Of a stretch of DNA of 64,000 nt, positions 13,360-63,742 are shown piece after piece; position 1 is the stretch's first letter; each line of letters starts with the position of its first letter. The notes under the pieces were generated by a model. It saw only the letters and a program-made list of their open reading frames with translations, did not search any database and was not told the origin of the DNA. This DNA comes from an uncultured Candidatus Saccharibacteria bacterium (GTDB taxonomy: Bacteria > Patescibacteriota > Saccharimonadia > Saccharimonadales > Saccharimonadaceae), in contig CAMYUU010000002.1 in assembly GCA_947302355.1 (NCBI GenBank), positions 1 through 64,000 of the forward strand, in the 5' to 3' direction. The position numbers and the translations under genes were made by a program.

Positions 13360-13425
13360 AAGTAAATTATAGCATATATTGGAGGCGTGGTGGGATAAGA
13401 GTATGTAATTATTTGGACAAAAGAG

Positions 13426-13452
13426 TGCCCGGGCTTGCGCCCGAGCGGGGTG
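13426..13452 (-). terminator. Intrinsic terminator (copy 1 of repeated hairpin)
   Basis: gtgcccgggcttgcgcccgagcgggg; minus strand gives GC hairpin followed by CTCTTTT. Confidence 0.6.
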
Positions 13453-13453
13453 G

Positions 13454-13798
13454 TTAATATGGGATCAAGACCCAGATGTGGCCTTTGCGCTTCTTTTCAT
13501 CATAGCTAGCTTCAAACTTGAATGATGTTTCGAGCGCGTTGGGTTCGAAGCATTTGATTGATGGTATCTCGCAATAACCTTTGATGGAGAGCTTGTTGCC
13601 ATCGGAGTCATCCTCATACCCTAGTGTGGTGACCGTGATGATTCTAGCGTCTACGGTCGAGAGCATGTAGTCTTTCTCGAGAGTAAAACCTGTGATAGGG
13701 ATGACTGCGTCTGCGTTGAAAGCATACCTCCACTTGTCGATTAGCTCGTCCCTCGTCGGTCCTTTCAGAATGGAATAGCCTTTCCACTTGACAACCAC
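13454..13798 (-). CDS. Uncharacterised 114-aa protein, paralogue of 13949..14293
   Basis: Same length and alignable with its neighbour; minus-strand TTGACA-N17-TATTAT promoter upstream. Confidence 0.65.
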   Translation of the reverse strand: MVVKWKGYSILKGPTRDELIDKWRYAFNADAVIPITGFTLEKDYMLSTVDARIITVTTLGYEDDSDGNKLSIKGYCEIPSIKCFEPNALETSFKFEASYDEKKRKGHIWVLIPY

Positions 13799-13917
13799 AA
13801 GAATCTCCTTTCAAATGTGCTATCCGAAGGATACGTTAACCTCGTATAGGCTGGTTTGTATAATACTACGAATTGTGTTTATTGTCAAGAATCACGGACT
13901 AGTTTTCTGAAAAGAAG

Positions 13918-13945
13918 AGTGCCCGGGCTTGCGCCCGAGCGGGGG
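13918..13945 (-). terminator. Intrinsic terminator (copy 2 of repeated hairpin)
   Basis: agtgcccgggcttgcgcccgagcggggg, near identical to 13426..13452. Confidence 0.6.
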
Positions 13946-19422: not shown

Positions 19423-21147
19423 ATGAAAAATAAAAAGTGTAAATATATATTTGTAACTGGTGGCGTGCTGTCTGGGGTAGGTAAGGGAATCACGGCAGCT
19501 AGCATGGGAGCGATTCTGAAGGCAAAGGGTTATAAAGTAACCATGCAAAAATGCGACCCGTATCTAAATGTAGATGCGGGTCTTTTAAATCCGGTGGAGC
19601 ATGGTGAGTGCTATGTGACGCATGATGGGGTTGAAACGGATCTTGATCTTGGGCACTATGAAAGGTTTTTGGATTTTGAAACTAATAAATATTCAATCAC
19701 GTTGTCAGGTTCAATTTATAAGGAGTTGATTGAAAGAGAGCGCGCTGGAGGATTTCATGGCAAGACTGTGCAGCTAGTGCCGCATTTTACGAATTTGGTT
19801 TGCGAAAAAATTGAAAAAGCTTCGGCGGAGAGTGATATTCATATAGTAGAAATCGGTGGTACGGTGGGGGACTATGAGGGGTTACCGTTTATTGAGGCGA
19901 TTAGATTGTTTGCGAACAAAGTGGGTCGGCGAAATTGTCTGTATGTTTCGGTGGTATATGTACCATTCATTCATACGTCAAACGAATTGAAAACTAAGCC
20001 TGCGCAGAACGCGTTGAAGGATTTGCGTGGTTTTGGAATAATACCAGATATTGTATGCGTAAGGACAGAAGAGCCGTGTCCTAGGGCGATTTGCGAAAAA
20101 ATAGCAGCGTTTTCGGGGATTGAATCGGAAGCAGTGCTTAATTTGCCGGATATTAAATCGGTATATGATGTACCATTCAACGTGTTGAAGTCCGGAGTAC
20201 TAGAAATATTAAATGATTTTGTGGGTGATGAAGTGGAGCCGGACATGTCGCGCTGGAAAGAATTTTCTAGGAGGAGGGGACGTGAATACGCGAAAACTGT
20301 ACGAATCGGGTTGGTAGCGAAATATGTAGGAAATGACGATACGTATATGTGCGTGACAGAAGCATTAAAAGCTGCGGCAGCGTGGAATAATGTCAATCTC
20401 GACCTCAAATGGATCAATGCAGAAGAGCTAGGTCAGGCGTTAGCGAATGCCCCTTCGGGGCACGTTCCAGGCCACTCTGGCCAAGTCTTTATGTCCTCAC
20501 AGGAGTATTCGCCAACGCTTGACCTACTTCGGTCATGTGATGGCATTGTGGTGCCGGGAGGGTTTGGTAAGAGGGGGACGGAGGGGAAGATAATGGCGGC
20601 GGAGTATGCACTAGAAAACGATGTCCCGTACCTTGGTTTGTGTTTGGGGCTACAGGTGGCTTGTATTGCAGCGGCGCGCAAAGGCGGCGTAAAAGATGCC
20701 AATTCAGAAGAGTTTGGTGCTAGCGAAAAAAAGAAAAATAATGTTATTTATATTATGGAGGACCAAAAAGGTAAAGAATCTACTGGTGGCACAATGAGGT
20801 TGGGCAACTATACGGCGCGCTTAGTGCCAAAATCAAAAACCGAGAAGATTTATAAAAAATATAATTATGGGGAAGAAAAAGATGGTTATGAGGTAATAGA
20901 AAGACATCGTCATCGTTATGAAGTTAATCAGAAATTCTTGCCGGAAATAGAGAAGGCGGGAGTATTGGCTTCTGGCTTTTCGCCAGACGGCAAGTTGGTG
21001 GAATTTGTGGAAGCGCCGAAGTGTAAGTTCTTTGTAGCGACTCAGGCGCATCCGGAGTTTAAATCTCGCCCGCTTAACGTGCATCCGTTATTTATGGAAT
21101 TCATGAAGACTGCAAAACAATCTTTGCCGAAAGATGAATCGAGATAA
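19423..21147 (+). CDS. pyrG: CTP synthase with an in-frame insertion element
   Basis: KYIFVTGGVLSGVGKGITAASMGAILKAKGYKV; VPGGFGKRGTEGKI; GLCLGLQVACIA. ORF track extends to 19399; ATG at 19423 preferred. Confidence 0.95.
   Translation: MKNKKCKYIFVTGGVLSGVGKGITAASMGAILKAKGYKVTMQKCDPYLNVDAGLLNPVEHGECYVTHDGVETDLDLGHYERFLDFETNKYSITLSGSIYKELIERERAGGFHGKTVQLVPHFTNLVCEKIEKASAESDIHIVEIGGTVGDYEGLPFIEAIRLFANKVGRRNCLYVSVVYVPFIHTSNELKTKPAQNALKDLRGFGIIPDIVCVRTEEPCPRAICEKIAAFSGIESEAVLNLPDIKSVYDVPFNVLKSGVLEILNDFVGDEVEPDMSRWKEFSRRRGREYAKTVRIGLVAKYVGNDDTYMCVTEALKAAAAWNNVNLDLKWINAEELGQALANAPSGHVPGHSGQVFMSSQEYSPTLDLLRSCDGIVVPGGFGKRGTEGKIMAAEYALENDVPYLGLCLGLQVACIAAARKGGVKDANSEEFGASEKKKNNVIYIMEDQKGKESTGGTMRLGNYTARLVPKSKTEKIYKKYNYGEEKDGYEVIERHRHRYEVNQKFLPEIEKAGVLASGFSPDGKLVEFVEAPKCKFFVATQAHPEFKSRPLNVHPLFMEFMKTAKQSLPKDESR
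20429..20526 (+). repeat. Palindromic insertion element copy 1 (in-frame in pyrG)
   Basis: Arms TAGGTCAGGCGTTAGCGAAT / ATTCGCCAACGCTTGACCTA (inverted, 18/20) flanking core ...GGGGCACGTTCCAGGCCACTCTGGCCAAGTCTTTATGTCC... Confidence 0.75.
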
Positions 21148-45393: not shown

Positions 45394-46989
45394 ATGAGGA
45401 AGCGCCGTGAAGAATTAGATTGGCTGTACTGCGATGATCCAGAGCAGGATGACGATGGAGTGTACACCAAGAGGGGCGAAGACCCTGAAGAAGATCACCT
45501 TGCTTTTGATGGCAAGGTGGAGGCCAAAGAGGTGTCTGATTCCTCTGGTGGCTATCTGCCCATCAATGGCGGCTACAAGCGTGTCGCTAAGCGGCGTGGT
45601 AGGGGATGCGTTCCCTACGTGCTTGCGGCCATCGTCGCAATTGCGACGCTTGGCGTCCTGGCGTGGGGGCTTAAGTCTTGTAGTGGTCTCGATAGCTCCT
45701 CGTTGCTTCGTGGCAGCATTGTCGCGAAGGCGGACGAGCTCGAGGACGCTATTAATGACCTTACTGTCGCGAAGGTCACGGAGGAGGAGCTTGAGGCTTT
45801 GACTACGGGTAAGTACAAGGACGTGTCTTGGGTTTTCCTGGATTCGTCCCTGTCGCCACAGGATAAGGCTCGTACCAGTAGGACTGGCTTTTCCGATGCG
45901 CTGACCTTCGGGTTTACTGCTTCGGATGAGTCAGGGCGATTCGCCGAGCTTGAGGAGGAAATCCTCCGTAACCCAGTATTTGGGGTTACCGTCGCGAACG
46001 CCATCAAGGATAAGAAGATTGGCAATAGGGCCATAGGTTCTTTTAATCCTTGGATGGCTGAGATGGTCAAGCTAAACAGCCAGCACGGAGTTGCCTATTG
46101 GCTGGAGAAGGACAGCCAGGATACGTTCTATGTCACGGACGAGTATCGTTGCTATGCGGCGACGCTCTGCACGTGGCTTGAACTCCTGATTTATCAGGGT
46201 CAGTATTCGTGGCAAACGGTCGAAAATTGGTGCCTCAATGGGGCGGCTAAGAATAATGACCGTGCCGGTGTGCCGGCTTCCTACCAGTATGCAAAAGACG
46301 CTATAGTCTATGCATACGTAGGTAAGGACGCTGCCAATACTGGCTCCGATTCCGGCTCTGGTTCTGGCAACAAGGCCATCAGTGACAAGGGACTTTTTGT
46401 TATTGGATTCAACATCCATGATAAGCGTCCCGAGTTCTATGGTGGAACGCCGGAGAATCCGACGCCTAGTGGGCCGACGACTCCGGTAACGCCGGACAAT
46501 CCGAAGCCGAAGCCAGATCCTGACCCGAAGCCCGATCCTGACCCGAAGCCGAAGCCAGATCCTGATCCGAAGCCTGATCCCGATCCGGATCCTCCTTACA
46601 ATAAGGACCCGAATGACGCTCCGACGACGTATACGGAGCCGAACGACGACCCTGGTCCTGGCCCTAGCACCAATAACGGGGTTGGGGCTACCGAGTCGCC
46701 TGCAGACCAGCCGACCAATTCCAATCACGAGAGTTATCCTGATTATCAGGACGACGTCAAGGAATTGGAAGAGATTAATCAATCTCAGTCGACAGGTTCT
46801 GAGCCGAGTACGCCATCCACGCCGGCGCCATCTCCAAGTACCAACGTGGACAACAACGGCGATTCGGGAACCGAGACATCGGCTCCCATCAATGAAGCCA
46901 CACCCGTGGCACCTCCTGCAACGGAGGCTGGTTCGGGTGAGCCAATAAACTCTAGTCCAGGTGAGGCTTGGGAGGGCCCTACGGACTAG
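45394..46989 (+). CDS. Bitopic membrane/surface protein with Pro-Asp-Lys repeat stalk
   Basis: TM helix VPYVLAAIVAIATLGVLAWGL; PKPKPDPDPKPDPDPKPKPDPDPKPDPDPDP; SD ggaggtg before ATG. Confidence 0.75.
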   Translation: MRKRREELDWLYCDDPEQDDDGVYTKRGEDPEEDHLAFDGKVEAKEVSDSSGGYLPINGGYKRVAKRRGRGCVPYVLAAIVAIATLGVLAWGLKSCSGLDSSSLLRGSIVAKADELEDAINDLTVAKVTEEELEALTTGKYKDVSWVFLDSSLSPQDKARTSRTGFSDALTFGFTASDESGRFAELEEEILRNPVFGVTVANAIKDKKIGNRAIGSFNPWMAEMVKLNSQHGVAYWLEKDSQDTFYVTDEYRCYAATLCTWLELLIYQGQYSWQTVENWCLNGAAKNNDRAGVPASYQYAKDAIVYAYVGKDAANTGSDSGSGSGNKAISDKGLFVIGFNIHDKRPEFYGGTPENPTPSGPTTPVTPDNPKPKPDPDPKPDPDPKPKPDPDPKPDPDPDPPYNKDPNDAPTTYTEPNDDPGPGPSTNNGVGATESPADQPTNSNHESYPDYQDDVKELEEINQSQSTGSEPSTPSTPAPSPSTNVDNNGDSGTETSAPINEATPVAPPATEAGSGEPINSSPGEAWEGPTD

Positions 46990-47225: not shown

Positions 47226-48563
47226 ATGAAAAAAGTTTATAAATCGGTGCTTAGCGTGTCTGCCGCAGCAGTTGTGCTTGCAGCTACGCTTACGCCTGTG
47301 CTGGTGAATGCTTGGGGCGATTCTAGCAATGGCCGCAAGAGCTACACTTTAGCGCAAATTAACAATGGTGATCTTGGTGACACCATTACGTTTAACTCGA
47401 TTTCTAACGGTAAAATCGGGGATGAAAAGAATTTCGTGGGTGCCAAGGTAGCTGGTGCTTCTGTAGACACCTGGAATGCTAATACTATTGACGTAAAAGA
47501 CGGTGAAACTTATACGATTCGTCTTTTCGTTCATAACAACAGCCCAAAGGGCATGGAAGCGATTGCAAAGGGTGTAAAAGCCACTTTCTCGATTCCTACT
47601 ACAGTTGCTAAATCTCAAACGATTATTGGCTATATCGATTCTTCGAACGCTACCCCTAATCGTTATTGGGATGAAGTAACTTTGAATGCTAGTGAAAACA
47701 TTTACCTCGAATACGTTAGCGGTTCTGCTAAATTTACTAATAACAAGGGCACTTTTTCACTTCCTAACGAAGTAATTACTTCTGGTGCAACCTTAGGTTA
47801 TACTTCAATGAATGGTGAAATCCCTGGTTGTTATGAATATTCTGGTACTGTAACCATCGACGTGAAGGTGCATAGTTCGGTAGCCGCTAAGGTTTCGAAG
47901 CAAGTTCGCATTAAGGGTACTAAAACTTGGGGCGAATCTGTAGAAGCTAAGGTTGGTGATGAAGTAGAATATCAAATTGAATATGTTAACTTGCTATCTG
48001 AACAGGTCAAAGATGTAATGATTAGGGACGTGCTTCCTACTAACGTTGAGTATGTAAATGATTCTACGTATCTTTACAACTCAAATTATCAGAGTGGCGT
48101 ACTACTAAAGGATAATACTCTTACTACGACTGGTATCAATATCGGTTCTTACAATGCTAAGGGTAATGCTTACGTGCGCTTTACTGGTAAAGTAGTAGAT
48201 AAGTCTATGGCTTGTGGCAATAACCAGTTAGTTAACTGGGCAAGTGCTACTGTGTCTGGTTCTACTATTAAGAATGCAGTCTATAAAGACGATGCATCTG
48301 TAATGGTAAACAAGGATGATGAGATTTGTAAAAAGACTCCTGATCCAGATCCAACTCCGGATCCAGACCCAACGCCTGATCCAGATCCAACTCCGGATCC
48401 AGACCCAACGCCTGATCCAGATCCAACTCCGGACAATCCAGGCGAAACTCCTACGGTTATCGTGAGCACTGGTCCTGAAACTATTGTATCTGGTGCAGTT
48501 GGTGCCGGTTCTGTGGTGACCACTCTTGGTTACTACATTGCTAGTCGTAAAAAATTAATGTAA
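47226..48563 (+). CDS. Secreted surface protein with DUF11-like domain, PDPT repeat stalk and C-terminal membrane anchor
   Basis: Signal peptide, KGTKTWGESVEAKVGDEVEYQIEYVNLLSEQVKDVMIRDVLPTNVEYV, PDPDPTPDPDPT repeats, STGPET...TM...SRKKLM tail. Confidence 0.8.
   Translation: MKKVYKSVLSVSAAAVVLAATLTPVLVNAWGDSSNGRKSYTLAQINNGDLGDTITFNSISNGKIGDEKNFVGAKVAGASVDTWNANTIDVKDGETYTIRLFVHNNSPKGMEAIAKGVKATFSIPTTVAKSQTIIGYIDSSNATPNRYWDEVTLNASENIYLEYVSGSAKFTNNKGTFSLPNEVITSGATLGYTSMNGEIPGCYEYSGTVTIDVKVHSSVAAKVSKQVRIKGTKTWGESVEAKVGDEVEYQIEYVNLLSEQVKDVMIRDVLPTNVEYVNDSTYLYNSNYQSGVLLKDNTLTTTGINIGSYNAKGNAYVRFTGKVVDKSMACGNNQLVNWASATVSGSTIKNAVYKDDASVMVNKDDEICKKTPDPDPTPDPDPTPDPDPTPDPDPTPDPDPTPDNPGETPTVIVSTGPETIVSGAVGAGSVVTTLGYYIASRKKLM
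48344..48431 (+). repeat. In-gene tandem repeat encoding PDPTPDPDPT
   Basis: GATCCAGATCCAACTCCGGATCCAGACCCAACGCCT repeated. Confidence 0.85.
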
Positions 48564-51116: not shown

Positions 51117-51887
51117 TTAGATTACATGGTCGAATAAACAAGCAATGGTTAGCGGGCCGACGCCGCCGGTGGGGGGCGTGATGGCGGCGAGGTCGGTGCG
51201 GGCGCGGACGTCGCTGGAAAGGTCGCCTTTTAGGACGCCGTTTTCGCTGGCTGTGCCGGCATCTACAACTACGGCACCAGGCTTAATCATTGAGCTATTG
51301 ATTAAGCCTGCTACGCCGGTAGCCGTAATAATAATATCGTATTGGTTGAGCATTGTAAGGTTGGAACCACGGTGGAATAAATTTACATTAAGCCCAGAAT
51401 CACTAAACATTTTAAATAATGGAGCGCCTACGAGTTTTCCGCGACCAACGATGGCGATTTTCTGATTTTTTAATTCGATATTATAGCCGGTGAGAAGCCA
51501 GTTAATAGCAGTGGCGGTGGCTGAATCGTAATTGGCGTGTTCGCCTAGGCCATCTACGTCTTTTTCAGGTGCGATTAGATTACAAAGTTCATCGGTGCGT
51601 TCTTTTTCCTGAATTGGAAGCTGAATGATAATACCAGAAACTGATGGATCGCTACTAGCACGAATGATTTCTTCTTGGAGGGCGTCAGAATTTTGTGCAC
51701 GATAGTCAATCACTTCTACGCCGATATCTTCGCCGTATTTAATTTTAAGATTGACATATTTAAGAATGACAGGGTTATCACTATCGCGAAGAATGAGAAG
51801 TTTAGGTTTTTTAGCCATTTTGCGGATTTGCTGGGCTTGACGTTCTTTGATGAAGCCGGCCAGTTCGCGACCATCTAAGATCTTCAT
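51117..51887 (-). CDS. folD: Bifunctional methylene-THF dehydrogenase/cyclohydrolase
   Basis: SGIIIQLPIQEKERTDELCNLIAPEKDVDGLGEHA, IVGRGKLVGAPLFKMF, ITPPTGGVGPLTIACL. Confidence 0.93.
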   Translation of the reverse strand: MKILDGRELAGFIKERQAQQIRKMAKKPKLLILRDSDNPVILKYVNLKIKYGEDIGVEVIDYRAQNSDALQEEIIRASSDPSVSGIIIQLPIQEKERTDELCNLIAPEKDVDGLGEHANYDSATATAINWLLTGYNIELKNQKIAIVGRGKLVGAPLFKMFSDSGLNVNLFHRGSNLTMLNQYDIIITATGVAGLINSSMIKPGAVVVDAGTASENGVLKGDLSSDVRARTDLAAITPPTGGVGPLTIACLFDHVI

Positions 51888-53008
51888 TGGATCTCCATAG
51901 GTTCTTGTTCGAGCCAATAACCAAATTTGTCGTAGACTTTGCCAACTATTTCACTACGAGCGGCTTTTAGATCATTATAACCTTTGGCGGATTCATTGAT
52001 GAGAACTAGTGGGGCTTTGTCGCTAACGCGCATCCCATGTAAGAGCGCGCCTTTAAGACCAGCTTGTTCGATTAGCCAACCGGAATTGATTTTGTTGCCA
52101 TCTTTGCCGTGATAAACTGGGTAACCTTTGGATTCGGCTAGCTTGGCATCGGCATCGTTTAGGTAGATATTTTTAAAGAATGATCCGGAACTAGCTTGGC
52201 TTAAAGGGTCTGGCAATTTGCTGTCACGGATATCGCTTACGATTTGACGGATGCTCTGAGGACTGTAATCGGTAATATTGTTGGCTGATATGTATTGCTC
52301 GATAGAATTATAAAATGGGCGAGACATTTCGCCAGATCTAAGATGGAGGGTGAGAGAGATAACGAAATAGCGATTTTTGTCGGTAGTATTTAGAATGCTT
52401 TTGCGATAGGAAAAATGAAGATCGGATTTTGAGAGGGTTTTATAAGTATGGTCAGTGGTGTCGTAAACTTCGATTTCGACTAATGTATCTGCGATTTCTT
52501 GGCCGTAGGCTCCGATGTTTTGGACTGGAGCTGCGCCAGCTAGGCCAGGTATTTTGCTCAAAGCTTCAATCCCAGTGAGGTTTCTTTTGCAGGCGTAGTC
52601 GACGACATCGTCCCAGTATTCGCCACCCATCACTTTAATATAAATCGTGGAACGACTAGGCACCTCTTTTTCGGACACACTTGAGGCCGTTCGGCCAAGC
52701 TTATGGTCCTCAAAAGAGGTACCTGAGTCGCTCTGTGACTCATATTTAGATTTAAGGATGTCTGTCGGTGTCTGGGTAATCTCGATGCCTTTCATGCGGT
52801 TAATGATGATGACGCCGTTAAATCCTTCATCGTGACCGATGGTGTTGGCGCCGTAGCCAAGTACGAAAGTAGGCAAATGGGCTTGTTCGGCAAAGCTATA
52901 AGCATCAGCAACTTCGTCGTGGTTTTCAACTTCAATTACGTAGCGTGCTGGACCGCCAAGTCGCATGGTGGTGAGACTGGAAATTAAGATATTTTCATTA
53001 ATCCTCAT
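51884..53008 (-). CDS. murB: UDP-N-acetylmuramate dehydrogenase with an in-frame insertion element
   Basis: NILISSLTTMRLGGPARYVIEV, LGYGANTIGHDEGFNGVIIINRMKG, GIEALSKIPGLAGAAPVQNIGAYGQEI. Confidence 0.95.
   Translation of the reverse strand: MRINENILISSLTTMRLGGPARYVIEVENHDEVADAYSFAEQAHLPTFVLGYGANTIGHDEGFNGVIIINRMKGIEITQTPTDILKSKYESQSDSGTSFEDHKLGRTASSVSEKEVPSRSTIYIKVMGGEYWDDVVDYACKRNLTGIEALSKIPGLAGAAPVQNIGAYGQEIADTLVEIEVYDTTDHTYKTLSKSDLHFSYRKSILNTTDKNRYFVISLTLHLRSGEMSRPFYNSIEQYISANNITDYSPQSIRQIVSDIRDSKLPDPLSQASSGSFFKNIYLNDADAKLAESKGYPVYHGKDGNKINSGWLIEQAGLKGALLHGMRVSDKAPLVLINESAKGYNDLKAARSEIVGKVYDKFGYWLEQEPMEIQ
52650..52733. repeat. Palindromic insertion element copy 3 (in-frame in murB)
   Basis: Arms GAACGACTAGGCACCTCTTTT / AAAAGAGGTACCTGAGTCGCTC inverted; core TCGGACACACTTGAGGCCGTTCGGCCAAGCTTATGGTCC. 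Confidence 0.75.
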
Positions 53009-55484: not shown

Positions 55485-55589
55485 ATGTAATAAGAAAATA
55501 TTTTAAACGTGCCCTTCGGACACGCTCCAAGGCCGCTCTGGCCAGTCTTTATGTCCCGCAGAGCAGATTAAAATATATTCTTATTACAT
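55485..55589. repeat. Palindromic insertion element copy 2 (intergenic, overlapping tsaE stop)
   Basis: Arms ATGTAATAAGAAAATATTTTAA / TTAAAATATATTCTTATTACAT inverted (1 mismatch); core CGGACACGCTCCAAGGCCGCTCTGGCCAGTCTTTATGTCC. Confidence 0.8.
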
Positions 55590-57326: not shown

Positions 57327-60300
57327 ATGGTGAATTTAAAAGTATTTAGATTATTGCGCAAAAAAACTTTGTTACGATTATCTGTCTTTAGTTTGGCGAT
57401 TGTGATGTTTTGTTGCTTGATTGGGAATATGTTTTTACAGCAAGGGCAAAATGTTTTTGCTGATGATGTTCCTAAATGGGCTAGAATTTGGTATAGCGAA
57501 GACTCTGATGACAAGGCATGGTTTTATAATAGCTATGGGAACTGGGACTACACCCATCTTTATTATGTTTGCTTTAGCCAAAATAGAAACGATACGAGCT
57601 GTACTTCTAATTATACGCTAGCTTTTTGTTCTCAGCCAAATTCATTAATTCCGGCCAATATCGAGTATAGTCCTGATACTTGGTACAGCACAGAGACATA
57701 TAGTCATAATAAGGTGAAATTGTTGTTGTATATCTATTACTATCGTGGTAGTGTAACTGCGGCGGGCCAGGCAAAGAAGGAGATATTTGATGATGGGGGT
57801 TGGGATGTCAGCAACTGGAAGAAGTTGTATGGCTATGTACATGCGGCGCTCGGATATCTATACGATGGTGGGGCAGGTGGCTTAGAGGACGGATATATGG
57901 ATAATGCGTCTTGGCTTGACGATTTTAGGAGAATTTCTAATATGCTCGGAAATTATATTAATAACAATGCTACGGTTTGGCAGCAAGCGAAAACTTTTAC
58001 TTTGTATAGGACGAAAGGAGGGGATGATTATCAGGATATTATGTGGATTGAGCCGGGGGATGTGACTTTGACTGGCGTAGCAGTGGATACTGATGGAAAT
58101 AGGATTTCTGGGCTTAGTAATGTTACTTCTACTGTAGAGTTTAATAGCTCAGCGTCGATTACTGCGGGCTCCAAGGCTGGTTGGACATTTAAGGGATGGC
58201 GGACGAGTGCTGAGAGTGGTACACCTTCTGGTAGTTCGAGTTATACCGTGAGTCATTTAACTGCCAATACTACTGTTTATGCGGTGTATGAATATAAGGC
58301 TTTTCAAGCAAAGGCTGAAGTTTCTGATGCTTCGACCGGATATGTAGTTGAAAATAGTACATCTAAAACTATGACTTGCACTGATACTGGAGATGGTTGT
58401 TCGGTCAGTTTTTCCTTTTATCTAAAAAGGGTAGCTGGTTCGGATGGCGATGGTACTAAATATAGTACGGATAGAGTAGGTACATCTGGTTCTTGGGCTG
58501 ATAAAGATACTGATAAGTCAGTGACCCCATCTAGTAGTGGTGATAAAGTAGTGACATATAATGAAAAGATAAAAGCCGGTCAGAGGATATGCTATAGAAT
58601 GGTTTATTATCCACACGGAAGTTACGGTGCAGATACGACGAAGACGGTTTCGGCTTGTGCTTATGCGGTAGGGACTTTTGAGTCGAGCATAAAGATTGAG
58701 GCGAAAAAGAATAATGATCCATATCGGATAACTGACATTTATGCAAAACCTACTGATAAGATTTATTTGAAAGGAACGTATACACCGACGGCACAATATG
58801 GATCCGATTTAAAGCCGGCTATTGTGAGTGTGGGGAATAGTAGTAACAAGGAAAGCTCGAAGGTGGTTAAAGCTAGGTTTAATACATTGATGGGCACTAA
58901 TCCGGGGTGGAAAAATGCTTTTTCCGTAACTTTCAATAGGAGTGGATTTAGTACGCGTAATATTACTGGAACTGATGGCAGTGTAGCTGCGTATGCATCT
59001 GGTGATGATGTTTATTCTACAATAGGATATAGTGATCCGGGTAGCACTTTTACGGCCAAGGCAAAAACCAATGTTAATAATAACACAAAAACCACTCCTA
59101 AAAAAACTGAAATTACTTACAATAGTACAAATGGATTTGTCGTGACAATTAATAATGGATCGATTGAAGCTGCGCTTCAGGTGATGGTGCCATATAACTT
59201 TACGAATTCTACGGAAGTGACGTTTGATCAAGATTTGCCTTTGTATGCTGGGGAGGATATGTCTATTTCTTATGATATTACGACAGGGGTAAGAGACAAT
59301 CCGACGGTCGGTGGTAGTTACGCTACGATTGCGAAAGACGCAAAATGGAAAATACAGATGAGTGTGAATAATGGTCCTTGGCAAGATTTTGGATTGGTAG
59401 AAAATCAAATACTGAATGAAAATGATGCCGAGCTAGACGGTTCTACTAGACATGCTAGTTCTACGGTTGAGATACCCGATGTCAAGGCTGGTACTATGGT
59501 ATGTTTCCGTTCGGCTGTATACCCAGCTTCAAGTGGTGGAGATACTAATATTGACAAAGGTGGCGATAAGGAATGGGCTTACTCTGATTCGAAGTGTTAC
59601 ACCGTAGCCAAAAGACCATCTCTTCAGGTCTGGGGTGGTAACATTTACTCCAATGGCGCAATCACAACTAGCGTAGCAGTAAAGAAAAGGTTGGCTGGCG
59701 AAAGTGACGGTACACATGTCTTTGGCTCATGGGGTGAGTTAGGTATCATTGCGAACGGACAAGTAAAGGGCCTAGCTAGCGGAGCTGGCTATGCTTATAA
59801 TACTGGGGCCAATAATACTGGATTTTGCTTCGTGAGTACATTGTCATTTGCTAACGATAAATGTAATAGTGAAACAACTGGCTCACTAGGAGTTTCATTT
59901 GGAGTACTAGATGATGAAAAGAAATTGATAATAGAAAAGCTAACTAACGCTGAAGACGTTACAAAATATAGTAGCACTGACGAACTTGAAGAAAGAATAG
60001 GTGGAGATTCCGGAATAATACTGGTTGAAAATGATGAAACAGTTAACATAACGAAGCCTATAATATACGACGATACTTATACTAGTTTTGAGTCAATGCC
60101 TAAAGTTGTAATATACGCTAAGAACGTTAATATTAATTGCAATGTAACCCAGATAGATGCCTTAATAATCGCAGAAGATGCAGTAAACACTTGTAGCAAT
60201 ATTTCGGATGTAAATGATCAAGGAAGATCTGTGCAATTGAAAGTTAATGGTGCCATTGTAGCTGATAAACTAATCGCTGGACGTACTTATGGTGCGGGTA

Positions 60301-60440
60301 CTGGCACAAATTCTGGTATCCCAGCTGAGATTATTAACTTTGATCCTTCACTTTATTTGTGGGGCGGAAGTTCGGCGGATGCCAATACTAGTTCTTCTTA
60401 TGAGAATGTATATTCTCGTGAGCTATCGCCTAGATATTGA
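57327..60440 (+). CDS. Large surface protein (InlB-type repeat plus conserved C-terminal domain)
   Basis: Signal peptide; FKGWRTSAESGTPSGSSSYTVSHLTANTTVYAVYE; C-terminal VWGGNIYSNGAITTS... domain. Confidence 0.8.
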   Translation: MVNLKVFRLLRKKTLLRLSVFSLAIVMFCCLIGNMFLQQGQNVFADDVPKWARIWYSEDSDDKAWFYNSYGNWDYTHLYYVCFSQNRNDTSCTSNYTLAFCSQPNSLIPANIEYSPDTWYSTETYSHNKVKLLLYIYYYRGSVTAAGQAKKEIFDDGGWDVSNWKKLYGYVHAALGYLYDGGAGGLEDGYMDNASWLDDFRRISNMLGNYINNNATVWQQAKTFTLYRTKGGDDYQDIMWIEPGDVTLTGVAVDTDGNRISGLSNVTSTVEFNSSASITAGSKAGWTFKGWRTSAESGTPSGSSSYTVSHLTANTTVYAVYEYKAFQAKAEVSDASTGYVVENSTSKTMTCTDTGDGCSVSFSFYLKRVAGSDGDGTKYSTDRVGTSGSWADKDTDKSVTPSSSGDKVVTYNEKIKAGQRICYRMVYYPHGSYGADTTKTVSACAYAVGTFESSIKIEAKKNNDPYRITDIYAKPTDKIYLKGTYTPTAQYGSDLKPAIVSVGNSSNKESSKVVKARFNTLMGTNPGWKNAFSVTFNRSGFSTRNITGTDGSVAAYASGDDVYSTIGYSDPGSTFTAKAKTNVNNNTKTTPKKTEITYNSTNGFVVTINNGSIEAALQVMVPYNFTNSTEVTFDQDLPLYAGEDMSISYDITTGVRDNPTVGGSYATIAKDAKWKIQMSVNNGPWQDFGLVENQILNENDAELDGSTRHASSTVEIPDVKAGTMVCFRSAVYPASSGGDTNIDKGGDKEWAYSDSKCYTVAKRPSLQVWGGNIYSNGAITTSVAVKKRLAGESDGTHVFGSWGELGIIANGQVKGLASGAGYAYNTGANNTGFCFVSTLSFANDKCNSETTGSLGVSFGVLDDEKKLIIEKLTNAEDVTKYSSTDELEERIGGDSGIILVENDETVNITKPIIYDDTYTSFESMPKVVIYAKNVNINCNVTQIDALIIAEDAVNTCSNISDVNDQGRSVQLKVNGAIVADKLIAGRTYGAGTGTNSGIPAEIINFDPSLYLWGGSSADANTSSSYENVYSRELSPRY
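59475..60365 (+). repeat. 891-bp block duplicated at 62777..63667 (copy A)
   Basis: Visually identical apart from one base near the 5' edge; constant 3302-bp offset. Confidence 0.95.
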
Positions 60441-60503
60441 TTTATCCAATTTAATTCTGAGAAAAAGTTGGAAAAATGATGTTGGTTATGCTAATATAGA
60501 AGC

Positions 60504-61016
60504 ATGAGCAAAGGTAAGGTTATATTGGGCAACAGATGGCTGGTTGTTTGTTTTTGCGTTCTTGGTGGTTTGGCTATATTTTTAGCAGTAATAAACATTA
60601 CGATTTGGGTTACAAATTCAAATTATGACGATGGCGGTGAGTTGTCAGAAGAAGAGACTGTGGTAATTGATGATTCGTTTGATGATGGTGTTATTACTGA
60701 TGAAGATTTGCAAGCGTATATCGAAGAAACAAGTCGTAAAATATCGGAAGTTGTAATAGATGATGAAAAGGTAAATATATATAAGGAGAGAGTTGATTAT
60801 CTTGCTAGTAATAGTGAGTTTGGGGTGTTCGCTGACCAGATGATTGCGGATTGCATTGCAATAGACGATATTGAGCAAAGTGTGGATTCTGCAGCTCAGG
60901 TAGCTAATACGGCAAGTGTTTATGGAAAAGATGAAATTGCTGAAAAATATCTGCATATTATGAAACAGAGGATGAAAGATCAGGGTATAAACGAGGAGGT
61001 ACAAGGAATAGGATGA
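60504..61016 (+). CDS. Bitopic membrane protein between the two surface paralogues
   Basis: VVCFCVLGGLAIFLAVINITIWV helix; overlaps next start by 4 nt. Confidence 0.6.
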   Translation: MSKGKVILGNRWLVVCFCVLGGLAIFLAVINITIWVTNSNYDDGGELSEEETVVIDDSFDDGVITDEDLQAYIEETSRKISEVVIDDEKVNIYKERVDYLASNSEFGVFADQMIADCIAIDDIEQSVDSAAQVANTASVYGKDEIAEKYLHIMKQRMKDQGINEEVQGIG

Positions 61017-63742
61017 AAAAGTGGTGTTTGCTAGTTATATTAATAGTAGGATTCTTAGGGGTCTGCATGTCAGCTCCGAGAGTATCAGCAAGTCAATTTA
61101 ATAGTAAGGAGGAGTGTTTAAACGCTAGTGGTGGCAGGCGTGATATCAGTTCGGTAGATTGGGCTTGCGACTGGGTTGGTACTGCTACGGAAACAGTGTG
61201 TGCCTTATGGATTGGCTCCGCTACGAATACTGTTGATCCTATTATTTATACTGATAAAACTTCTGGTAAGGTGACAATAAGATATTATAGAATGTGTTAT
61301 GATGGGACGCTTGGTACGGCGCATATATGGGTAGAAAATGATAATGGCGCGATAGATGATAGCATGAATATGAATGGAGGGACTTGGAATAATCCTAAAC
61401 ATATTGATACCCAGCTTGATGTAGGTAAGTTTATTAGTGGTATTAGTAGTACCGAAGTGACACACGACGGCAAAGTGTATAATGAATATTCCCGCTGGGT
61501 AAAGGTGGGAAGGCAGAGTGAGACTGCATCTAGCTGTGACGCTTACTCGGGGGCTTGTTCAGAGATGAATGAGCTAGTGCGAGTGCGGATATTAAAAAAA
61601 TCATTTCAGGCGAAAGCGGATGTATCTGATTCTTCAACTGGATACGTAGTTAATGGAAGTACATCTAAAACCGTGACTTGCAATAATGCGATGGACGGTT
61701 GCTCGGTTGGTTTTTCTTTTTATATAAAAAAGATTTCTGGGTCGAGCAGCGATGATACTACTTATGGTACGGAAAAAATAGGTCCGTCTGGTTCTTGGAC
61801 TGGTGTTGAATCGAATAAATCATCTACCGCTTCTAGTGGTGGTACGGAAGTGGCGACGTACAGTGCGACAATAAAGGCTGGTCAGAGGATATGCTATAGA
61901 ATGAACTATCATCCGCACGGAAGTTACGGTGAAAATACGACGAAGACAGTTACGGCTTGCGCCTATGCGGTGGGGGAGTTTAGCTCGAGTATAGATATAA
62001 AAGCAAAAAAACAAAGTAGCAGAAATTATTCTGATAATATGATATATGCAAGGCCTGACGATAAAATTGATTTGCAGGGAACGTATGCGCCGAGGGCTCA
62101 ATATGCAGCTAGTTTGCGCCCGAAAATTGTTGAAGTAAATGGGACTACGAATAGTAGCTCTGGTACTGTGCAATCTAGGTTCAACAGCATAGTGGGTTCA
62201 AATGGATGGAAAAATACTTTTTCGATTAGATTGGACAGGGGCTCTACTGGGTTACTTGTTCAACATAAAGGTGGCACTATTGGCGCTATTGATACCTATA
62301 AATTCATAGCAGGTTATAGCATTAACGCTAAACAGGATCCTGGAAATGCATTAAAGGCTAAAGCGCTTACAAACAATGATGATAGCCATAAGACTGCTCC
62401 TAAAAAATCTACTATTTCTTATGATAAAACGACTGGATTTAAGGTGACGGTTGACCCGAATAGAATTAGTGATGAACTACAAATAGTGGTACCTTATAAT
62501 TTTATTAATTCTACGAAGGTGACTCTTGATGATAATGTGTCTTTATATGCTGGAGAGGCTATGTCCATTTCTTATGATATTGAGACGAGGACGAGGAAGA
62601 ACAATAAGATTGGAAGTACTTACGCTACGATTGTGAGGGGGGCGCAGTGGGAATTACAGATGAGCGCAGATGGTGGTAAGACATGGGAGAAATACGGAAA
62701 GAAGACTAATCAGGTTTTGAATAAAAATGGGAAAATTGATGGTGATTCTATTTCGCTTAAGTCTACTGCTATAGTTCCCGATGTCAAGGCTGGTACTATG
62801 GTATGTTTCCGTTCGGCTGTATATCCAGCTTCAAGTGGTGGAGATACTAATATTGACAAAGGTGGCGATAAGGAATGGGCTTACTCTGATTCGAAGTGTT
62901 ACACCGTAGCCAAAAGACCATCTCTTCAGGTCTGGGGTGGTAACATTTACTCCAATGGCGCAATCACAACTAGCGTAGCAGTAAAGAAAAGGTTGGCTGG
63001 CGAAAGTGACGGTACACATGTCTTTGGCTCATGGGGTGAGTTAGGTATCATTGCGAACGGACAAGTAAAGGGCCTAGCTAGCGGAGCTGGCTATGCTTAT
63101 AATACTGGGGCCAATAATACTGGATTTTGCTTCGTGAGTACATTGTCATTTGCTAACGATAAATGTAATAGTGAAACAACTGGCTCACTAGGAGTTTCAT
63201 TTGGAGTACTAGATGATGAAAAGAAATTGATAATAGAAAAGCTAACTAACGCTGAAGACGTTACAAAATATAGTAGCACTGACGAACTTGAAGAAAGAAT
63301 AGGTGGAGATTCCGGAATAATACTGGTTGAAAATGATGAAACAGTTAACATAACGAAGCCTATAATATACGACGATACTTATACTAGTTTTGAGTCAATG
63401 CCTAAAGTTGTAATATACGCTAAGAACGTTAATATTAATTGCAATGTAACCCAGATAGATGCCTTAATAATCGCAGAAGATGCAGTAAACACTTGTAGCA
63501 ATATTTCGGATGTAAATGATCAAGGAAGATCTGTGCAATTGAAAGTTAATGGTGCCATTGTAGCTGATAAACTAATCGCTGGACGTACTTATGGTGCGGG
63601 TACTGGCACAAATTCTGGTATCCCAGCTGAGATTATTAACTTTGATCCTTCACTTTATTTGTGGGGCAATGATGCAATAAAAACTGATCCTAATTCATCT
63701 TTGGTAAATGTATACCTACGTGAGCTATCGCCTAGATATTAG
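61013..63742 (+). CDS. Large surface protein, paralogue of 57327..60440
   Basis: Shared FQAKADVSDSSTGYVV... segment and identical about 300-aa C-terminal domain. Confidence 0.8.
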   Translation: MKKWCLLVILIVGFLGVCMSAPRVSASQFNSKEECLNASGGRRDISSVDWACDWVGTATETVCALWIGSATNTVDPIIYTDKTSGKVTIRYYRMCYDGTLGTAHIWVENDNGAIDDSMNMNGGTWNNPKHIDTQLDVGKFISGISSTEVTHDGKVYNEYSRWVKVGRQSETASSCDAYSGACSEMNELVRVRILKKSFQAKADVSDSSTGYVVNGSTSKTVTCNNAMDGCSVGFSFYIKKISGSSSDDTTYGTEKIGPSGSWTGVESNKSSTASSGGTEVATYSATIKAGQRICYRMNYHPHGSYGENTTKTVTACAYAVGEFSSSIDIKAKKQSSRNYSDNMIYARPDDKIDLQGTYAPRAQYAASLRPKIVEVNGTTNSSSGTVQSRFNSIVGSNGWKNTFSIRLDRGSTGLLVQHKGGTIGAIDTYKFIAGYSINAKQDPGNALKAKALTNNDDSHKTAPKKSTISYDKTTGFKVTVDPNRISDELQIVVPYNFINSTKVTLDDNVSLYAGEAMSISYDIETRTRKNNKIGSTYATIVRGAQWELQMSADGGKTWEKYGKKTNQVLNKNGKIDGDSISLKSTAIVPDVKAGTMVCFRSAVYPASSGGDTNIDKGGDKEWAYSDSKCYTVAKRPSLQVWGGNIYSNGAITTSVAVKKRLAGESDGTHVFGSWGELGIIANGQVKGLASGAGYAYNTGANNTGFCFVSTLSFANDKCNSETTGSLGVSFGVLDDEKKLIIEKLTNAEDVTKYSSTDELEERIGGDSGIILVENDETVNITKPIIYDDTYTSFESMPKVVIYAKNVNINCNVTQIDALIIAEDAVNTCSNISDVNDQGRSVQLKVNGAIVADKLIAGRTYGAGTGTNSGIPAEIINFDPSLYLWGNDAIKTDPNSSLVNVYLRELSPRY
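62777..63667 (+). repeat. 891-bp block duplicated from/with 59475..60365 (copy B)
   Basis: See copy A. Confidence 0.95.

Follow-up and report, generated by a model that had tools for sequence, protein, structure and literature searches.

Background

Rickettsia palindromic elements (RPE) and their Wolbachia counterparts are repeats that lie in frame in conserved protein genes, where they are read as peptide, and that also occur in intergenic positions (PMC2229807). Inverted repeats retained inside translated protein genes are described for Nematomorpha mitochondria as well (PMC6649704). Template switching generates and repairs hairpins (PMC8794818). In coding DNA, it is reported to homogenise arms and invert spacers (PMC8604942), and in E. 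coli it is strand-biased (PMC7202029).

The element examined in this study occurs in murB of an uncultured Candidatus Saccharibacteria bacterium. It was found in a stretch of 64,000 nucleotides, referred to below as the window, with which contig 2 of a 727 kb genome begins. The Saccharibacteria group in question consists of tiny gut bacteria, and the genus of the source genome also contains Candidatus Nanosyncoccus alces. Our results make it fairly probable that this is a protein-coding palindromic element, a small selfish or mobile hairpin of DNA whose arms were produced by fold-back template switching in replication. Searches of an open-access library returned no description of such elements.

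The insert in murB

The insert-bearing ORF was assigned to murB through Pfam matches of its product (MurB_C, 3e-18; FAD_binding_4, 1.4e-16), a PDB match (MurB 1mbb, 2e-42) and a predicted structure that matched MurB 4jay. A preliminary description of this DNA had reported a palindromic repeated element in frame in the gene, and this was confirmed: the ORF is open throughout, the added peptide (residues 84-121) reads as quoted with no stop, and the two arms are separated, as claimed, by two substitutions and one indel. The element is organised as left arm, TC, 37-nt core, TC and right arm (Table 1). It forms a single long hairpin both as single-stranded DNA (-19.3 kcal/mol, z = -4.3, 0/200 shuffles) and as coding-strand RNA (-48.8 kcal/mol, z = -9.4, 0/200 shuffles).

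Table 1. Features of the murB insert and core relatives in the window
Feature	Position	Strand	Basis or remark
murB (UDP-N-acetylenolpyruvoylglucosamine reductase)	51884..53008	-	374-codon ORF, insert-bearing
Extra 38 codons (residues 84-121)	52646..52759	-	missing in L217 and L224, relatives whose murB site is empty
Palindromic element, core with near-perfect arms	52650..52733	+	sequence, DNA and RNA folding
Family A core, 37 nt, sole portion common to copies	52673..52709	+	profile score, alignment, covariation
Left arm, locus-specific	52650..52670	+	sequence, arm-pairing comparison
Right arm, locus-specific inverted partner of left arm	52712..52733	+	sequence, arm-pairing comparison
Weak outward continuation of left arm	52634..52645	+	within murB codons IYIK; sequence and inference
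Weak outward continuation of right arm	52744..52755	+	sequence and inference
Diverged core relative in pyrG, in frame, long arms of its own	20446..20520 (about)	+	profile score
Diverged core relative, intergenic	55505..55560 (about)	+	profile score

E. coli MurB displays a two-residue turn between strands at the place where the 38 additional residues sit here. Structural modelling had been suggested in order to see whether the insert is a surface loop. An AlphaFold model gave pLDDT values below 50 for residues 84-118, with flanks of high confidence, and predicts a loop that is disordered. At 114 nt, the murB insert is longer than a core plus one arm, so layered events are possible at this site.

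The murB core had also been said to match two other copies, but the window contains just one good copy of it. The supposed copies are probably the diverged relatives in pyrG and in an intergenic position, whose profile scores are far under those of real copies. A family A insert was observed in pyrG of another species (L134), at roughly the same place as the pyrG relative of the window. As for the weak similarity extending outwards from the arms, it is real; its interpretation as a remnant of longer original arms is no better than a longer fold-back copy, which fits equally well since the similarity runs into murB codons (IYIKV).

Other repeats were recorded elsewhere in the window. Positions 58302-63740 contain a long direct duplication (3302-base offset, 72-97% identity in matched stretches), and positions 46483-46602 and 48327-48434 carry tandem tracts of 6-base units (CCGAAG, CCTGAT, CCAGAT), the predicted product of which is a series of Pro-Lys/Asp repeats. 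Positions 13406-13944 include two copies of GTGCCCGGGCTTGCGCCCGAGCGGGG, a G+C-rich repeat resembling a hairpin.

A conserved core of 37 nucleotides

The repeated unit had been taken to comprise the core and its arms. This was not the case: the 37-nt core alone is repeated and the arms are unique to each locus. The murB core reads GGACACRCTCRAGGSCGYTCGSCCRAGCTTAYGGTCC and reached a profile score of 59.6, the best shuffled match scoring -32. A degenerate pattern recorded 16 copies in the source genome and 0 for the mirrored control; further analysis of the genome covered the stretches around matches.

In an alignment of 130 copies, variation was nearly absent at most of the 37 positions. The inner-stem pair is C-G in 68 copies, G-C in 59 and different in 3, and positions 7 and 18 covary (A-T 59, G-C 62), a relationship that holds within each stem class. 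This suggests an extra, pseudoknot-like contact of the 5' strand with the loop of the hairpin; the common ancestry of subfamilies may account for part of the covariation. At L007, L008, L011, L022, L023, L101 and L183, the core was longer, its 5' half containing about 30 additional bases. Rfam searches at gathering and permissive thresholds returned no credible match for the element.

At the murB and ligA sites, other species carry unrelated hairpin cores, designated families B, C, D and E. Alignment of murB across relatives, as the preliminary description had proposed, revealed orthologues with inserts of unrelated DNA, a finding that had been set out as a refutation of the element. At least three unrelated hairpin cores occupy the same murB site in different species; this indicates a permissive hot spot and does not make the element unreal. 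Cores A, D and E were found at one and the same place in ligA, with matching arms, and may represent independent insertion or core replacement. The further core families (at least four, B-E) were noted at L200-L223 for murB and at L271-L293, L311 and L312 for ligA, some of them being apparently nested.

Arms are specific to each locus

Over about 130 copies, arms paired with their own partner at a median score of 19 and with mismatched partners at 4; similarity among the right arms of separate copies was at chance level (median 4). Arm covariation could come partly from selection for the hairpin. The median insert length was 75 nt, measured with arm ends that are not reliably placeable. Two tandem elements at L004:1500-1640 displayed an identical right arm, CGAATAGTATTATTTG, as if core and arm had been copied twice.

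A native arm was established for ligA alone. Relatives with an empty site mostly display PLxI, a few residues and then (S)EVEVRGE, as in L295 (PLKIHLED-GVPSEIEVRGE). In genes with family A inserts, residues like GVPSE(I/V)EVRGE are retained on the right side of the core, and the left arm is the inverted copy of this part. Since empty sites already read PLKI-HLED-GVPSEIEVRGE and similar, the right arm is the native one. Own-species arm pairing totalled 592 (permuted maximum 371), and arm scores of the 18 empty sites were 3-7. The difference persisted over 15 nt of conserved host codons (own 204 vs maximum 174, 0/20,000 permutations; empty sites 4). The copied arm mirrors species-specific synonymous bases of the native one, including an unusual Ala codon of the host arm in L282. 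In tsaD of L087, the opposite arm seems native by eye; polarity is thus not fixed.

These features weigh against a miniature transposable element of the classical type (RPE-, MITE- or REP-like), which would carry its own arms, diverging with compensating changes, and be moved by a transposase acting in trans. Arms of different copies would then hardly be alike at chance level around a highly conserved core, nor would one ligA arm consist of native host codons and the other of their inverted copy. Moreover, Y1 transposases (PF01797) were absent from the source genome and recorded in 8 of 175 genomes of the genus, in a search with a positive control. Such an origin does account for a short palindromic repeat inserted in frame, for a core covariation that suggests a recognised structure and for Bifidobacterium outer ends that look conserved by eye; an insert of about 75 nt would also suit a core plus two 19-nt arms. 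All in all, we regard it as unlikely.

Reading frames, orientation and empty sites

In-frame coding insertions amounted to 66, although the effective number is smaller since some are orthologues derived from one event. All 28 antisense insertions used the core's one stop-free antisense frame, which makes it almost certain that inserts are translated; among sense insertions, three open frames were used 22, 15 and 1 times. On the basis of these frames, translation would add 15-40 residues, with predicted peptides in LigA, ValS or MurB such as SSSDTLKAVRPSLWSS and EDHKLGRTALSVSE. Genes carrying inserts include murB, ligA, leuS, tsaD, pyrG and a valS-type synthetase, all names but murB having been assigned from sequence motifs.

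The core was located on the G-rich strand (positive GC skew) at 118 of 132 loci (p = 6e-22), and the coding direction on the core strand was divided (74 vs 59). Core orientation therefore follows replication and not transcription. Two gene pairs, valS and one other, consist of orthologues with opposite directions relative to the skew; the core has opposite orientations relative to these genes and so stays on the G-rich strand. The pair L105 and L186 is an exception to this rule. This points to a replication-linked DNA process.

Orientation also bears on the possibility of a functional RNA element, namely a regulatory hairpin or a segment that ribosomes bypass or that is removed from the mRNA, with selection for RNA pairing as the maintaining force. 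The RNA fold is very stable and arms do display compensating changes. A link with replication rather than with coding direction is nevertheless hard to reconcile with such a role, as are a frame that is always open and devoid of stops, which removal would not need, the lack of an Rfam match and a presence in essential genes that differs among species. This makes a functional RNA highly improbable.

The 43 coding insertions with an uninterrupted homologue displayed an arm score of 18, as opposed to 6 at the empty site and 7 at control positions. Since empty sites are without palindrome, the latter appears together with the insertion. Insertion of the core into the loop of pre-existing host hairpins is contradicted at these coding sites, as well as by the low scores of the ligA empty sites; it could apply to some intergenic copies, several of which occur within terminator-like stems. 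As an overall explanation, its probability is very slight.

Distribution

The core was present in 67 of the 175 genomes of the genus (mirrored control: 0). A class-wide sample revealed it in 1 of 153 genera, with none in the 152 others. In a scan of GTDB species, the matches listed came almost exclusively from Saccharibacteria, plus several Bifidobacterium species. Genomes of the latter contained 12-18 loose core matches each, apparently intergenic, and those inspected were apparently true copies with their own arms. Outer ends of Bifidobacterium elements looked partly conserved by eye, beside variable arms (L089, L142, L153, L162, L192, L193 and L226-L255). One coding match among those listed, apparently unrelated, occurred in a proteobacterial MAG. 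An assembly artefact was ruled out, as many separate MAG projects, strain genomes of Bifidobacterium and Candidatus Nanosyncoccus alces all yielded the same core.

The least probable explanation of all, an oriented chromosomal signal (DNA-uptake or segregation motif) incidentally located within hairpins, would suit the strong orientation bias relative to replication and the fixed core sequence, but about 1-16 copies per listed genome, with 108 of 175 genomes lacking any by pattern, are too few and too patchy, and nearly every copy has matching arms.

Searches of phage and plasmid records for the core were negative (0 in viral_contigs, 0 in plasmids). The single match in a record labelled as phage, "Bacteriophage sp." MT837054.1 (L314), was rejected as a phage carrier because its ORFs are MurJ- and TrxB-like by eye, i.e. 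chromosomal; it is probably a mislabelled chromosomal fragment, likely from Bifidobacterium. Reverse transcriptases (RVT_1, PF00078) were recorded in 98 of 175 genomes of the genus and in none of the source genome's sequences, despite its 16 core copies.

A possible mechanism

In the preferred reading, fold-back template switching, the heritable repeat would be the self-folding 37-nt core, which would enter a new site while DNA is being replicated. With the core on it, the growing strand would fold back on the core's own hairpin, copy 20-35 nt of adjacent host strand and then resume its normal template. A host arm, the core and an inverted copy of the host arm would result, that is, a palindrome built on the spot. 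Subsequent template switches would re-copy one arm from the other, keeping both matched, and could invert the core. Insertions would survive wherever core and arm leave the frame open and the surface loop that receives them is tolerant.

Both the fold-back copying and the upkeep of arms by template switching are deduced from the comparisons above. Together, they would account for local arms, their absence from empty sites, inverted native codons, kept pairing and core inversion. The model covers the origin of the arms and does not explain the arrival of the core at a new locus. Nor does it predict conserved outer ends, so the partial conservation seen by eye in Bifidobacterium counts against it.

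A broader proposal can be put forward tentatively, although we find it rather doubtful as a whole: a mobile element free of transposase, with a self-priming hairpin core spread by replication template switching and arms built from landing-site DNA, would have crossed between Saccharibacteria and Bifidobacterium, and the unrelated cores A-E would use the same strategy and sites. Under the preferred fold-back reading, the part of palindromic repeats that spreads would be separated from the part made locally, the old question of how protein-coding palindromes are inserted would receive a testable mechanism, and template-switch mutation would be tied to mobile DNA. Unrelated hairpins have repeatedly lengthened essential proteins in identical loops, and the distribution possibly records a transfer of DNA between actinobacteria and the episymbiotic Saccharibacteria.

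Comparison with known systems

Like REP/BIME sequences, associated with RAYT/Y1 transposases, the present elements are short hairpins with several copies per genome. REPs, however, carry the whole palindrome and are chiefly extragenic, and the source genome is without Y1 transposase. Nematomorpha palindromes have both arms encoding conserved protein, and the abstract of their description mentions no common core, whereas here only one arm is native.

Hairpins generated by template switching (quasipalindromes) share with our elements the inverted copy of adjacent DNA, arm homogenisation, spacer inversion and strand bias. Their typical feature, an arm that is the reverse complement of adjacent native DNA, was found in ligA. 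They involve local sequence only, in contrast to the elements described here, where unrelated loci from two phyla have one and the same 37-nt core at their apex.

The likeness to RPE lies in palindromic repeats that small-genome bacteria carry within protein genes, in frame, and that are absent at the sites of relatives. RPE occur in a different phylum from Saccharibacteria and measure 105-146 bp with their own terminal inverted repeats, whereas the elements described here have a common 37-nt centre and local arms. Set against the descriptions of RPE, the element is best read as analogous in its effect on genes and different in the origin of its palindrome, and not as a member of the RPE.
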